Positions 47-5,241 of a DNA stretch of 5,620 nucleotides are shown here, one piece after another. Within the stretch, counting starts at the first letter, position 1. Each line of letters starts with the position of its first letter. The stretch lies in contig CAKZQG010000022.1 of assembly GCA_937139605.1 (NCBI GenBank), positions 1 through 5,620 on the forward strand, given 5' to 3'. This DNA is from an uncultured bacterium (GTDB lineage: Bacteria > DRYD01). The notes beneath the pieces were generated by a model. It was not told the origin of the DNA. It saw nothing but the letters and a program-made list of their open reading frames with translations, and searched no databases. Both the position numbers and the translations under genes were made by a program.

Positions 47-866
47 GTTTTAGCCTACCTATAAGGAATTGAAACTTTCATACCAAATTTCGTACTGCCC
101 GTCCCCGTCAAGTTTTAGCCTACCTATAAGGAATTGAAACAAAAATTGTTAAAATTTAACAAAAATTTTACAAAGATTGTTTTAGCCTACCTATAAGGAA
201 TTGAAACGTATAATTGCATTTTCAAACCCATCCATATGTTTAAGTTTTAGCCTACCTATAAGGAATTGAAACTGCAATCTCGGGGAGATTTCATATACAT
301 ATTGTTATGTTTTAGCCTACCTATAAGGAATTGAAACATCTAATTCCTTGCTTCCAAAATGTAAATCCCCGAAGTTTTAGCCTACCTATAAGGAATTGAA
401 ACTTTTTTCTTTTTCTTTTTGTCCTTCCCATTCAGTAGCGTTTTAGCCTACCTATAAGGAATTGAAACCAATAAAAAAAAGTAAGATTTACAATTTTTTA
501 ACAAAGTTTTAGCCTACCTATAAGGAATTGAAACACTTTCTTTACTATTATTCTTTTTTTCCTTTATTTTTGTTTTAGCCTACCTATAAGGAATTGAAAC
601 TAAAACACATTTCGTACTCCCCGTCAAAGGGGTTATACGTTTTAGCCTACCTATAAGGAATTGAAACCCAACACAAAATCTTAAGTTTATTTCTTTTATA
701 TACTGTTTTAGCCTACCTATAAGGAATTGAAACTCTAATTCATTTAAACTTATAAGCTTATCTATTAAATTGTTTTAGCCTACCTATAAGGAATTGAAAC
801 AATAATAATTATTAAAAAAAATAATTTCAACTAAAAAGTTTTAGCTTACTTATAAGGAATTAAAAC
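47..866 (+). CRISPR. CRISPR array, 13 repeats and 12 spacers, type I-B/III-like repeat
   Basis: The 29-bp repeat begins GTTTTAGCC and ends GGAATTGAAAC. Repeats start at 47, 112, 179, 244, 309, 374, 440, 506, 572, 639, 705, 772 and 838. The first twelve are identical and the last differs at three positions. Spacer lengths in order are 36, 38, 36, 36, 36, 37, 37, 37, 38, 37, 38 and 37 bp, and all twelve are different. The repeat end ATTGAAAC matches the 8-nt 5' handle left by Cas6 processing in type I-B and III systems, and the decayed repeat at the right end marks the leader-distal side. Both indicate rightward transcription. No cas gene is in the window, so subtype and activity cannot be fixed. 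Identical repeats and unique spacers suggest an array that was recently active. Spacers 1 and 9 share sequence, and several spacers look like reverse-complemented coding sequence (see findings). Confidence 0.98.
838..866 (+). repeat. Degenerate terminal CRISPR repeat
   Basis: This copy differs from the other twelve by two C-to-T changes in the CCTACCTAT part (giving CTTACTTAT) and one G-to-A change near the end (ATTAAAAC instead of ATTGAAAC). The last change falls in the expected crRNA 5' handle. Decay of the leader-distal repeat is usual, because new repeats are copied at the leader end. It therefore marks the old end of the array and sets its direction. It ends only 6 bp before the stop codon of the convergent rapZ gene. 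Confidence 0.93.
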
Positions 867-872
867 TAGGAC

Positions 873-1727
873 TTAACTTTTAGAAATATCCCGATGCTCA
901 GTGATAACCTTGATATTAGAATTATTTTTAGATAACAACTCAGAAAGATACTCCACAACAAAAACCGACCGATGCTTCCCCCCAGTGCACCCCACCGCTA
1001 CCTCCAATAAATTCTTAACCCTCCCTAAATAATTAGAAATAAAAAACTCCAAATACCCATAAGTCCTATTAATAAAATCAATAGTAAAACTATCACTAAG
1101 CAAATACTCCCTAACTTGAATATCCAACCCCGTCTTATTAGAAAGCTCATTAATATAAAAAGGATTCTTCAATAACCTCACATCTAAAACTATATCAGCA
1201 TTCACTAACCCATACTTATAACCAAAAGATATTAACTTTATCGTTAAATCCATACTAGGAACTAAATTTAATAAAGATAAAATAGTATTACCTAAATCAT
1301 AAGGAGTTAAAAAAGAAGTATCTATATAAAAATCCGCTTTTTCCTTTAATCTCTTAATTATCTCCCGCTCCTTAGCAATCCCTTCTAACGGATTATTAAC
1401 AGATAAAGGATGTACCCTCCTATTAGCCTTAAACCTATTCAATAAAACCTCATCCCTACAATCCAAAAAAATTAACTTAGCATCATACCTCTCTAATATC
1501 TCAAAAAATTCGTTCAAATTCTGCTCAAAATTATTAAAGAAAAAATCCTTTAACCTAACATCCACAGTTAAAGCAATATTCCTTATATTCGTAAAGGACA
1601 AAACCTCCAAAAACTTGGGTATCAATTGAATAGGAAGATTATCTATACAAAAGAACGCATTATCTTCCAAAACTTTAAGAGCAGTATTCTTACCAGACCC
1701 CGAAATCCCCGTTATAAATACTATCAT
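873..1727 (-). CDS. rapZ: RapZ family nucleotide-binding protein (YvcJ/YhbJ)
   Basis: At 284 aa it has the same length as E. coli RapZ. The N-terminal P-loop ATPase domain has a Walker A-like GISGSGKN (residues 7-14), followed by LEDNAFFCIDNLP (20-32), and a Walker B-like region LIFLDCRDEVLLNRF (85-99) leading into RRVHPLS (103-109). The C-terminal domain has DVRLLKNPF (182-190), TGLD (199-202) and the family signature VGCTGGKHRS (245-254). In enterobacteria RapZ binds glucosamine-6-phosphate and steers decay of the GlmZ sRNA, so controlling GlmS. In Bacillus YvcJ is an NTPase, and the role elsewhere is less clear. Two residues stand out: Asn14 replaces the usual Ser/Thr after the P-loop Lys, and Phe190 occupies the place of E. 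coli His190. The ATG has a weak AGGG (1734-1737) 6 nt upstream. It is the last gene of a leftward run, 58 bp after prs, and ends 6 bp from the CRISPR array with no visible terminator. Confidence 0.93.
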   Translation of the reverse strand: MIVFITGISGSGKNTALKVLEDNAFFCIDNLPIQLIPKFLEVLSFTNIRNIALTVDVRLKDFFFNNFEQNLNEFFEILERYDAKLIFLDCRDEVLLNRFKANRRVHPLSVNNPLEGIAKEREIIKRLKEKADFYIDTSFLTPYDLGNTILSLLNLVPSMDLTIKLISFGYKYGLVNADIVLDVRLLKNPFYINELSNKTGLDIQVREYLLSDSFTIDFINRTYGYLEFFISNYLGRVKNLLEVAVGCTGGKHRSVFVVEYLSELLSKNNSNIKVITEHRDISKS

Positions 1728-1785: not shown

Positions 1786-2787
1786 CTAATCAAATAACTC
1801 ACTTATAGATTTCCTCAAATATATCCTTTTAATAACTTCTGATAACAACTCAGATACACTAACTTGAATAATCTTATTATTACTCTTTAATTCATCATTA
1901 AGTGGAATAGTATCAGTAACTATAACCTTCTTTATATCAGATTCTTCAATAATCTTAATAGCATTAGAGACAAAGACAGGATGAACAGCTACAGCATAAA
2001 CCTCCTTAGCACCCAAAGCTATAATCTTATTAGCAGCCTTTACTAAAGTCTTTGCAGTAGATATCATATCATCCACTATTATTACCTTTTTATTCATAAT
2101 ATCCCCAACAACTTCCATAGATTCTACTTCTTCAATATCCGGTCTCCTTTTAAACATAACAGCAATAGGAAGCCCTATTTTTTCAGCAAATATCCTTGAT
2201 CTTATAACACTACCAGCATCAGGGGCTAACACCACAAACTCAGATAAATCTCCATCCAATATCCCACTATCCTTTAACGCCTTTATTAAAATATTATTAG
2301 CCTGTAAATTATCAACAGGAATATCAAAAAAACCTTGGATAGCTGGCGCATGTAACTCTATAGTAACAACCCTATTAGCACCCGCAACAGTTAATAAATT
2401 AGCAACCAATTTAGCAGTAATCGGCTCCCTACCACTAACCTTCTTCTCCTGCTTAGCATACCCAAAATAAGGGATAATAGCAGTAATAGTCCCTGCAGAA
2501 GCACGCCTAACCGCATCTATTATTATTAATAACTCCATTAAATTATCATTAACCGGCGGACAAGTAGATTGAATAATAAATACATCCTTACCCCTAACAT
2601 TCTCCAAAATCTTAACCCGGATCTCACCATCAGAAAACTTACTTATTATGCTATCAGCAATAGGTATATTTAAATGCTCTGAAATTTTCTTAGCTAAACC
2701 AATATTAGAATTCCCACTTATTAAAACAATATTAGAAAATAAAGATTTAAAATCAATCTCTTCATTCATTTTTTCACTTTTAAGCAT
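1786..2787 (-). CDS. prs: Ribose-phosphate pyrophosphokinase (PRPP synthetase)
   Basis: Cytoplasmic enzyme that transfers pyrophosphate from ATP to ribose 5-phosphate, giving PRPP for purine, pyrimidine, NAD, His and Trp synthesis. It has 333 aa, against about 310-320 for the family. The extra length is mostly an N-terminal tail before GNSN (25-28). Class I motifs in order: FSDGEIRVKILENVRGKDVF (51-70), PYFGYAKQEKK (106-116, usual ARQDRK), REPITAKL (120-127), ELHAPAIQGFF (144-154), the flexible-loop KRRP (213-216) and the PRPP-binding loop VDDMISTAKT (238-247). In that loop Lys246 stands where most homologs have Gly. The chosen ATG has a G-run (2796-2800) 8 nt upstream. Met7 is an alternative start with a poorer site, which would make the length more typical. 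The gene lies between glmU-like and rapZ, and glmU-prs adjacency is known in many Gram-positive bacteria. Identity is firm; only the start is uncertain. Confidence 0.95.
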   Translation of the reverse strand: MLKSEKMNEEIDFKSLFSNIVLISGNSNIGLAKKISEHLNIPIADSIISKFSDGEIRVKILENVRGKDVFIIQSTCPPVNDNLMELLIIIDAVRRASAGTITAIIPYFGYAKQEKKVSGREPITAKLVANLLTVAGANRVVTIELHAPAIQGFFDIPVDNLQANNILIKALKDSGILDGDLSEFVVLAPDAGSVIRSRIFAEKIGLPIAVMFKRRPDIEEVESMEVVGDIMNKKVIIVDDMISTAKTLVKAANKIIALGAKEVYAVAVHPVFVSNAIKIIEESDIKKVIVTDTIPLNDELKSNNKIIQVSVSELLSEVIKRIYLRKSISELFD

Positions 2788-2996: not shown

Positions 2997-4313
2997 TTAT
3001 TTTACATTTATATTTTTTTTAATCTTTAGTTTTTCAGTAGTAGTATAAAACTTAGCAGGATTACCTAAAACAACTGTATTACTTTCAACATCCTTAGTAA
3101 CAACACTACCAGCTCCAACATAAGAATTACTACCAATAACCTTAGGAGCTATTATAGTAGAATTAGACCCAATAAATGAATTAGCTTCTATAATTGTTTG
3201 ATACTTATTAACTCCATCGTAGTTAGCAAAAACAACCCCTGCACCTATATTAACATTCTCTTTTAGAATCGCATCCCCTACATAAGCTAAATGACTACAT
3301 TTAACCTTATTATACATTTTGGTATTTTTTAATTCAACAAAAGCCCCTACCTTATTACCTTCCATTATCTCATTGTTCTCCCTTAGATTACTAAAAGGCC
3401 CAATAACATTATTATTTAATATTTTATTAGATTTTATAACAGAATTAGAAATAATATTTTTACTACCAATTTTAGAATCCAAAATAAAACAATTCGGACC
3501 TATTTTATTTAATTTCCCCTCAATTAAACTATTTACTATAAAAACATTATCCAATATTAAGTTCTCAGCATTTATATAACTTAAAGGACATATAAAAATA
3601 TTATCCCCCAATAAAACAATATCTTGAAAAATCCTTTTTATAATTTTTTTCGATTTTTCAAAAACTAACTCTATATCCTTTAAATTATTTATTCTAAAAA
3701 AATAATCACTTAATTCTTTATTATTCACAATATTTTTCAAAATTTCTTCTTTGTTTTTTAATAATTTTTCATCAATTTCTATTAATCTTTTTAAATTAAA
3801 AACCTTTTTAAATAGAAAAGATTTAACTAATCCCCAATTGTTAGATTTAAAAACAAAAGAAAAATTAGAAAAATCAATAAAATCATCTACATAAGATAAA
3901 AAACTTATATTATTATTTTTAATAAAATTTAGAAAGATATCAATATTATAAGAGATTAAAGGAGTATTAGCAGGCAAAATTATAAACTCTATTCTATCTC
4001 TATTAATTTTATCTTTAAAGGATCCGTCATCAAAACCCAAAGTATCATTTAATTTGTCATAATCATTTAATTTTTCATAATATAAAATATTTATATCATC
4101 TAAAAATTTTTTAAAATGGTTTTTAAATAATTCTTCATTAGAATAATCTATTACAAAATTTAAACTAAAAGATATTTTTTGTTCCTTAAAGAAATTTTTG
4201 ATTTCTCTTAACTTAATAATTAAAGGACTTAATATAGGATAGATATAGAATTCGTCAGTATATTTAAAAATCTCTTGTTCTAATGGCAGATAAACTTCTA
4301 TAAAGCGATTCAT
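2997..4313 (-). CDS. glmU: GlmU-like protein: intact acetyltransferase, degenerate uridyltransferase domain
   Basis: This 438-aa protein follows the plan of bifunctional GlmU (about 455 aa). The C-terminal left-handed beta-helix (about 235-438) keeps the GlcN-1-P acetyltransferase residues at a constant offset of 22 from E. coli: Arg311, Lys329, His341 (catalytic, in CSHLAYVGDA), Tyr344, Asn355 (NVNIGAG), Asn364 (NYDG), Lys370, Ser383 and Ala401. The N-terminal half should be a UTP:GlcNAc-1-P uridyltransferase, but the LAAGxGTRM...PK signature is absent; residues 9-17 at that place read LPLEQEIFK. The GDxPLI metal site reads ANTPLI (115-120), with Asn for the Mg-binding Asp. The late Asn motif survives as RINN (207-210). 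This half is very rich in Asn, Lys, Ile and Phe. It probably acetylates GlcN-1-P but cannot make UDP-GlcNAc by itself. The ATG has no Shine-Dalgarno site, and an in-frame TAA five codons upstream rules out a longer start. It is not a simple frameshift, because the fold-level landmarks stay in frame. Confidence 0.85.
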   Translation of the reverse strand: MNRFIEVYLPLEQEIFKYTDEFYIYPILSPLIIKLREIKNFFKEQKISFSLNFVIDYSNEELFKNHFKKFLDDINILYYEKLNDYDKLNDTLGFDDGSFKDKINRDRIEFIILPANTPLISYNIDIFLNFIKNNNISFLSYVDDFIDFSNFSFVFKSNNWGLVKSFLFKKVFNLKRLIEIDEKLLKNKEEILKNIVNNKELSDYFFRINNLKDIELVFEKSKKIIKRIFQDIVLLGDNIFICPLSYINAENLILDNVFIVNSLIEGKLNKIGPNCFILDSKIGSKNIISNSVIKSNKILNNNVIGPFSNLRENNEIMEGNKVGAFVELKNTKMYNKVKCSHLAYVGDAILKENVNIGAGVVFANYDGVNKYQTIIEANSFIGSNSTIIAPKVIGSNSYVGAGSVVTKDVESNTVVLGNPAKFYTTTEKLKIKKNINVK

Positions 4314-4524: not shown

Positions 4525-5241
4525 ATGAGATATTATCTAAATTCTAAAATCTCAAAAATATTAGTAATAATTTACTTATTTTTAGTAACATATTTAAGTT
4601 TAATTAAATCAATTAAATCTGAAAATATACTCTATGAACCCCCTAATTTAGGGATACTAAAAAATAATATAAAATATTATATAAACTCTGGACAATATGA
4701 AAAAGATATAGAAAAAGTCATAAACAAAGCCAAAGAATACATATATAACAGAACCAAAGATTTAACAGAAGAAGAAAGAAGTAAATTAGCAGTAGTTTTT
4801 GATATAGATGAAACTTCATTATCTAATTTAGAATATGAATATAAATATGATTTTGGATTTAATTACGAAACTTGGATAGACTGGGTTAAACAAGCCAAAG
4901 CCCAACCAATTAAACCAACCTTAGAATTATACAAATACATTAAATCCCTTAATATAAAAACATTCTTTATAACTGGTAGAAACCAATTAAATGAAAATTT
5001 AAACGAAGATCCTACTATTATTAATCTTAAAAAAGCAGGATACTACCTATGGGAAAAAGTATATTTCAAACCAACTAATACTAAAATCTCTACAATAGAA
5101 TATAAAACTAACTGCAGAAAAGATATAGAATCTAAAGGCTATAAAATAATTCTAAATATAGGTGATCAATATAGTGATTTAGAAGGAGGATACTCCGAAG
5201 CAATCTTTAAACTACCTAATCCCATGTACTACATCCCCTAA
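4525..5241 (+). CDS. HAD-family acid phosphatase (class B / subfamily IIIB-like), exported
   Basis: This 238-aa protein has a basic N-terminus, then a hydrophobic segment (about 11-29), so it is a signal peptide or membrane-anchored protein; no lipobox Cys is present. Cleavage near SIKS-EN (29-34) is possible. HAD motif I is VFDIDETSLSN (91-101), with Asp93 as predicted nucleophile and Asp95 as general acid/base. Motif II is FFITGR (147-152, Thr150). The basic motif III residue is Lys194 or Arg198. Motif IV is NIGDQYSDLEGG (211-222), with Asp214 and Asp218 as Mg ligands. The ending KLPNPMYYIP is typical of the plant VSP/bacterial acid phosphatase group (the Acid_phosphat_B family). It probably removes phosphate from small organic phosphomonoesters outside the cytoplasm; the substrate cannot be read from sequence. 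AAAGGAGA (4508-4515) stands 9 nt before the ATG. It is divergent from the glmU-like gene and appears to be transcribed alone. No terminator is visible downstream. Confidence 0.88.
   Translation: MRYYLNSKISKILVIIYLFLVTYLSLIKSIKSENILYEPPNLGILKNNIKYYINSGQYEKDIEKVINKAKEYIYNRTKDLTEEERSKLAVVFDIDETSLSNLEYEYKYDFGFNYETWIDWVKQAKAQPIKPTLELYKYIKSLNIKTFFITGRNQLNENLNEDPTIINLKKAGYYLWEKVYFKPTNTKISTIEYKTNCRKDIESKGYKIILNIGDQYSDLEGGYSEAIFKLPNPMYYIP

Follow-up and report, generated by a model that had tools for sequence, protein, structure and literature searches.

GlmU, an antibacterial target, is regarded as an enzyme whose two functions are fixed. The GlmU of Rickettsia has lost its acetyltransferase domain and kept the uridyltransferase (PMC5615194). 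The gene described here is likewise reduced, as far as its residues tell, to one of the two activities, but it is the mirror image of the rickettsial case, the opposite half being the one lost. Searches of the open-licence literature for monofunctional GlmUs, GlmU pseudoenzymes or glmU fission turned up no description of such a case. Bifunctional GlmU proteins (TIGR01173; structures 1hv9, 1hm8 and 9dr4 from E. coli, S. pneumoniae and S. aureus) resemble the protein studied here in the left-handed beta-helix and in seven residues of the acetyltransferase site, in having an N-terminal domain at the same place and with what may be a similar fold in a structure model, and in the order of glmU and prs. 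The protein differs from them in lacking the uridyltransferase active site, in its shortened N half, and in the replacement of R440 by Asn.

The window (the whole stretch of DNA analysed, 5,620 bp in length) is an entire contig, G000:C22, from a 1.88-Mb assembly, 88.5% complete, of a hot-spring bacterium belonging to the candidate phylum Calescibacteriota. The placement rests on its relatives, which include 'Candidatus Calescibacterium sp.'. The features of the window are listed in table 1. The NCBIfam glmU model matched the protein over model positions 256–440 only and at 189.8 bits against a cut-off of 366.85, i.e. below the level for a full-length TIGR01173 protein (bifunctional GlmU). Pfam returned hexapeptide/LbH families only, and comparison with sequences of solved structures retrieved GlmU over the C half only, with the best match (1.8e-35) covering residues 244–418.

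Table 1. Features of the window (positions counted from its first nucleotide) and GlmU-type loci reduced to the beta-helix.
Feature	Position	Strand	Remarks
glmU-like gene, 438 aa, ATG start	2997..4313	-	acetyltransferase plus degenerate N-terminal uridyltransferase domain
degenerate GlmU-N (uridyltransferase) domain, residues 1-234	3612..4313	-	Pfam/NCBIfam match absent; active-site equivalents lost
remnant of the LAAGxGTRM...LPKVLHP signature, residues 7-26, VYLPLEQEIFKYTDEFYIYP	4236..4295	-	from alignment
Asn116 codon (AAT), in place of Mg ligand Asp105	3966..3968	-	Asn in 6/6 family members
left-handed beta-helix acetyltransferase domain, residues 235-438	3000..3611	-	seven catalytic/substrate residues intact
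prs, ribose-phosphate diphosphokinase, downstream neighbour of glmU	1786..2787	-	order kept in G001 and outgroup f2
rapZ, downstream of prs	873..1727	-	order kept in G001
CRISPR array	47..870		at contig edge, directly downstream of rapZ; 12 repeats match Rfam CRISPR-DR2 (GTTTTAGCCTACCTATAAGGAATTGAAAC); one further repeat, diverged, near 838-866
HAD-superfamily IIIB acid phosphatase (PF03767)	4525..5241		hydrophobic N-terminus; divergent from glmU; orthologue at same place in G001
beta-helix-only GlmU-type loci			L078, L080, L081, L086-L088, L092, L094, L097, L102, L111, L115

To number the residues, we added E. coli GlmU to an alignment of 25 proteins and confirmed that 22 of its positions could be checked against the residue known there. 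In the acetyltransferase site, R333, K351, H363, Y366, N377, N386 and K392 correspond to R311, K329, H341, Y344, N355, N364 and K370 of the window protein, and all seven are invariant across the 25 aligned sequences. R440 is replaced by N418, and the five family members whose sequence extends to this position all have Asn there. The N half presents a very different picture from that of E. coli GlmU: the G-loop (L11-AAGKGTR-M19) reads Y8-LPLEQEI-F16, so that Arg18 is gone, Lys25 is replaced by Phe22, the positions of Gln76 and Glu154 are occupied by Tyr79 and Leu167, Asn169 falls in a gap, and the Mg ligand Asp105 has become Asn116, with Asn found in six of six family members. The second Mg ligand, Asn227, is retained as Asn209 (in the string RINNL) and is the sole uridyltransferase residue kept among those tested. 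The sequence-only reading had proposed exactly this combination, i.e. an intact set of seven acetyltransferase residues joined to an N half without the LAAGxGTRM...PK signature and with Asn instead of the Mg-binding Asp, yet with some landmarks left, and it is borne out in each respect, including the landmarks, as NxPL and INN occur in the right order in an in-register alignment. It had also raised a base error as a possible cause of the missing signature. None of the G-loop, GDxPL and LPKxLH motifs occurs in any frame of the window, and the same loss is common to all six genomes of the family, so a sequencing error or frameshift can be ruled out, as can chance. The gene thus holds up as one for a GlmU-type acetyltransferase with a full beta-helix and, judging by the residues lost, a dead uridyltransferase half.

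The family context was drawn from seven genomes of the phylum with assemblies 71–90% complete, namely G000 (that of the window) and G001, representing one genus (g1), G002–G005 from its sister genus (g2), and G006 from an outgroup family (f2); g1 and g2 together make up the six-genome family f1. A search of related genomes for the same N domain, as suggested earlier, was successful: the glmU-like gene occurs in all five other f1 genomes, each time with the uridyltransferase loss. The N half is 221–234 aa long in g1 versus 139–165 aa in g2, where about a third of the domain is deleted. Invariant throughout f1 are Glu14, Lys17, Tyr18, Tyr25, Pro26, Pro30, Asn116, Pro118, Leu119 and Tyr122. Both g1 genomes share the order glmU–prs–rapZ, and glmU–prs is found also in f2 (where the glmU gene is cut by the contig end), which marks the gene as a vertically inherited GlmU. 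In g2, glmU is flanked by genes for a predicted beta-eliminating lyase and an rfaE-like kinase (ORFs named by inspection). Each genome has only one GlmU-type acetyltransferase domain.

The relationship of the N half to the uridyltransferase domain was assessed by profile comparison and structure prediction. Aligned with hhalign to a profile of 32 intact GlmU-N domains, the g1 N-half profile scored 24.9, at the Asp105 region, and beat 400 of 400 column shuffles (best shuffle 18.4). A profile of all six family members scored 20.6, a value reached by two of 399 shuffles, and the g2 profile on its own did no better against GlmU-N than shuffled columns (213 of 400 as high); the g2 N half is linked to GlmU-N through the window's genus. 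An AlphaFold2 model built on the 25-sequence alignment (mean pLDDT 79.6) matched whole GlmU structures with Z of about 28–30 over some 360–390 aligned residues at an rmsd of 5–9, the whole-GlmU alignments running over residues 3–434; the match to 9dr4, for example, had Z 30.5 (360 aligned, rmsd 5.4). For the C-terminal beta-helix domain, the match to 3twd_A had Z 30.7 (219 aligned, rmsd 5.2). The N-terminal fold of this model is partly imposed, because intact GlmUs are included in its alignment. A model built on the six family sequences only was of low confidence (mean pLDDT 58.5), with zero matches under an E value of 0.001; IspD, UDP-GlcNAc pyrophosphorylases and GlmU are among the weak matches that it drew.

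The two halves of the protein also differ in evolutionary rate. With dN/dS estimated by simple counting (dS 0.4–0.8 in usable pairs), and with the caveat that a reading frame preceding an essential domain is in any case under constraint not to disrupt that domain, the N and C halves gave 0.53 (95% interval 0.34–0.82) and 0.16 in the comparison of G000 with G001 and 0.25 (0.13–0.48) and 0.12 in that of G003 with G005, and the first 60 alignment columns in this latter, closest pair gave 0.08. The N half is therefore under relaxed purifying selection, relaxed but not free. This per-domain comparison had been proposed from the sequence alone, along with the idea that the N domain has been reused instead of simply lost; the selection on it supports that idea indirectly, and the domain has probably been kept as a scaffold or an interface. 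Its most likely role would be that of a packing or oligomer scaffold or of a surface for a partner.

The absence of any Pfam or NCBIfam match for the N half, and the fact that in g2 it scores like shuffled columns against GlmU-N, might be taken to mean that a GlmU acetyltransferase acquired an unrelated domain by fusion, and that the N half is not a decayed uridyltransferase. We give very little credence to such a fusion in view of the significant match of the g1 profile to GlmU-N, the in-register alignment with its NxPL and INN landmarks correctly ordered, the nucleotidyltransferase-like matches, albeit weak, of even the model built on family sequences only, and the glmU–prs synteny. The same synteny, alignment and shuffle-tested profile, together with the structure models, support the view, put forward in the sequence-only reading, that the gene comes from a bifunctional GlmU and that the function was lost later. 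Purifying selection on the N half and the conservation of Asn116, Pro118 and Leu119 in the family could be read in yet another way, as signs that it still catalyses nucleotidyl transfer or another sugar-phosphate reaction at a rebuilt active site. This seems highly improbable, as the equivalents of the G-loop, Lys25, Gln76, Asp105, Glu154 and Asn169 are lost or deleted and about a third of the domain is missing from the sister genus. A catalytically inactive N half derived from a uridyltransferase is thus the reading that we prefer, on the evidence of its residues.

With the uridyltransferase active site lost, another protein probably carries out the final step to UDP-GlcNAc. The need for a separate uridyltransferase, anticipated from the sequence alone, is supported by the presence of murA in five of the seven phylum genomes, by glmM matches in all seven (some weak or partial, and possibly belonging to other phosphohexomutases), and by the failure to detect an intact GlmU uridyltransferase domain, whether in a second GlmU or as a stand-alone GlmU-N, in any of the seven assemblies. 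GlmU itself stayed below the cut-off in all seven, and the same genomes yielded no UDPGP-type pyrophosphorylase above cut-off. A 575-aa hexapeptide protein (G000:C11) considered as a second GlmU was rejected, its ORF reading on inspection as an oxidoreductase–hexapeptide fusion. Four PF00483 nucleotidyltransferases are encoded in the window's genome. One of them (G000:C6:58413-59135) has relatives in seven of seven phylum genomes (partial in G003), all keeping LA(G/A)GEGTRLRPLT, the Lys of LPKPL, and the DD motif with the Mg-binding Asp. Its best match in the PDB is 8x7s, a UTP-glucose-1-phosphate uridylyltransferase (2.1e-42), followed by ST0452 (1.5e-26); from the match to 8x7s, we presume it to be CugP-like. 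CugP and ST0452 are related to the solved proteins that come nearest to this candidate, which differs from both in its short C-terminal beta-helix. CugP is the non-GalU UDP-glucose pyrophosphorylase of cyanobacteria and makes UDP-glucose (PMC7133116), and the GlcNAc-1-P uridyltransferase activity of ST0452 has been studied by mutagenesis (Zhang et al. 2007, cited in PMC4909775).

A further candidate is GlmR (YvcK), which occurs in six of the seven genomes, G004 (71% complete) being the one absent from the matches. The five GlmR sequences read (G000, G001, G002, G005 and G006) keep TxTDDGGSTG, with the proposed catalytic Asp-Asp, and an Asn. GlmR of g1 and f2 (L224 in G000:C15; L222 in G006:C43) has an extra hydrophobic, probably membrane-spanning N-terminus that is lacking in g2. 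We also considered a 286-aa nucleotidyltransferase-like protein (L006, in G000:C38), a weak candidate with no Pfam match and no clear G-loop Arg. Its gene lies near a heterodisulfide-reductase-like ORF, and nucleotidyltransferase-like proteins of 278–290 aa with an ATDxP motif occur in six of the seven genomes (L006, L153, L169, L178, L180 and L181).

Two alternatives bear on this step. The assemblies being incomplete, their gaps could hide a stand-alone GlmU-N of the kind that occurs in rumen Oscillospiraceae (see below); the window gene would then be a secondary paralogue or one half of a split pair whose intact partner went unassembled. Such a partner would have to be missed in every one of the seven genomes, and the window copy sits at the ancestral place beside prs, in genomes with a single GlmU-type acetyltransferase domain each, so we consider this very unlikely. 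A less remote alternative accepts the domain loss and assigns the uridyltransferase step to GlmR alone. GlmR of Listeria and S. aureus has been measured to synthesize UDP-GlcNAc from GlcNAc-1-P and UTP (PMC10128056), and its distribution in the phylum and its preserved Asp-Asp and Asn fit such a role. Nevertheless, GlmR has been described as an accessory enzyme alongside a full GlmU and was not found in G004, whereas the CugP-like enzyme is present in all seven genomes and is closer to enzymes with GlcNAc-1-P uridyltransferase activity. Sole reliance on GlmR thus appears rather unlikely, and the CugP-like enzyme is, as a candidate, more likely than GlmR to be the main replacement.

The explanation that we favour, and hold as a whole with good confidence, is that the window gene, from a bifunctional GlmU ancestor, encodes a monofunctional glucosamine-1-phosphate N-acetyltransferase. 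Its beta-helix half would convert GlcN-1-P and acetyl-CoA to GlcNAc-1-P, and its N half would adopt a shortened nucleotidyltransferase-like fold without a nucleotide or Mg site, which relaxed purifying selection maintains, most likely for use as a scaffold in packing or oligomer formation or as a surface for a partner. UDP-GlcNAc would then be made from GlcNAc-1-P and UTP by a separate enzyme, for which the CugP/ST0452-like one is the likeliest choice, possibly with or instead of GlmR.

Comparable changes can be seen in other bacteria. GlmUs of about 390 aa from rumen Oscillospiraceae (L061–L077) rank among the best matches outside the phylum; in them, as in Calescibacteriota, the acetyltransferase is intact and the N domain is retained with the equivalents of the G-loop, Lys25 and Asp105 lost. 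The decay differs in its details, the Oscillospiraceae N half keeping Arg18 and Pro24, and, unlike in Calescibacteriota, a stand-alone GlmU-N with LAAGKGTRM, LPKVL and GDMPLL was found in seven of seven rumen Oscillospiraceae genomes searched (its ORF cut short in one, and with stops in the frames of two matches). Clostridia of the Ca. Gallimonas type (L084, L085, L090, L103 and L112) have a degenerate and shorter N remnant on GlmU, and in many gut Clostridia, as in one Bacilli MAG, the ORF for the GlmU-type acetyltransferase spans about 200–290 aa and shows no recognisable N domain. An intact GlmU-N was absent at an E value of 1e-8 from the seven genomes of Gallimonas-type and other Clostridia searched. 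As the N half is degenerate or missing in Clostridia too, the loss is not confined to one phylum. In a tree inferred from 170 columns of the C domain, the degenerate genes of Calescibacteriota and those of Oscillospiraceae each fall in a starred clade of their own; AU tests did not reject a single clade for the two (p 0.72).

These parallels allow a more tentative proposal, to which we would assign somewhat less than even confidence, that GlmU-N decays repeatedly into a dead but maintained pseudo-domain aiding or regulating the acetyltransferase, and that in Calescibacteriota a CugP-type enzyme or GlmR has taken over the UDP-GlcNAc step as the only uridyltransferase. A lineage in which the second active site appears gone and the domain persists sets the catalytic role of GlmU-N apart from its structural one. 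It also predicts a different UDP-GlcNAc-making enzyme in a candidate phylum, where GlmR or the CugP-like enzyme could be the only uridyltransferase. For these genomes it would be wrong to annotate both GlmU activities on the basis of the acetyltransferase half.
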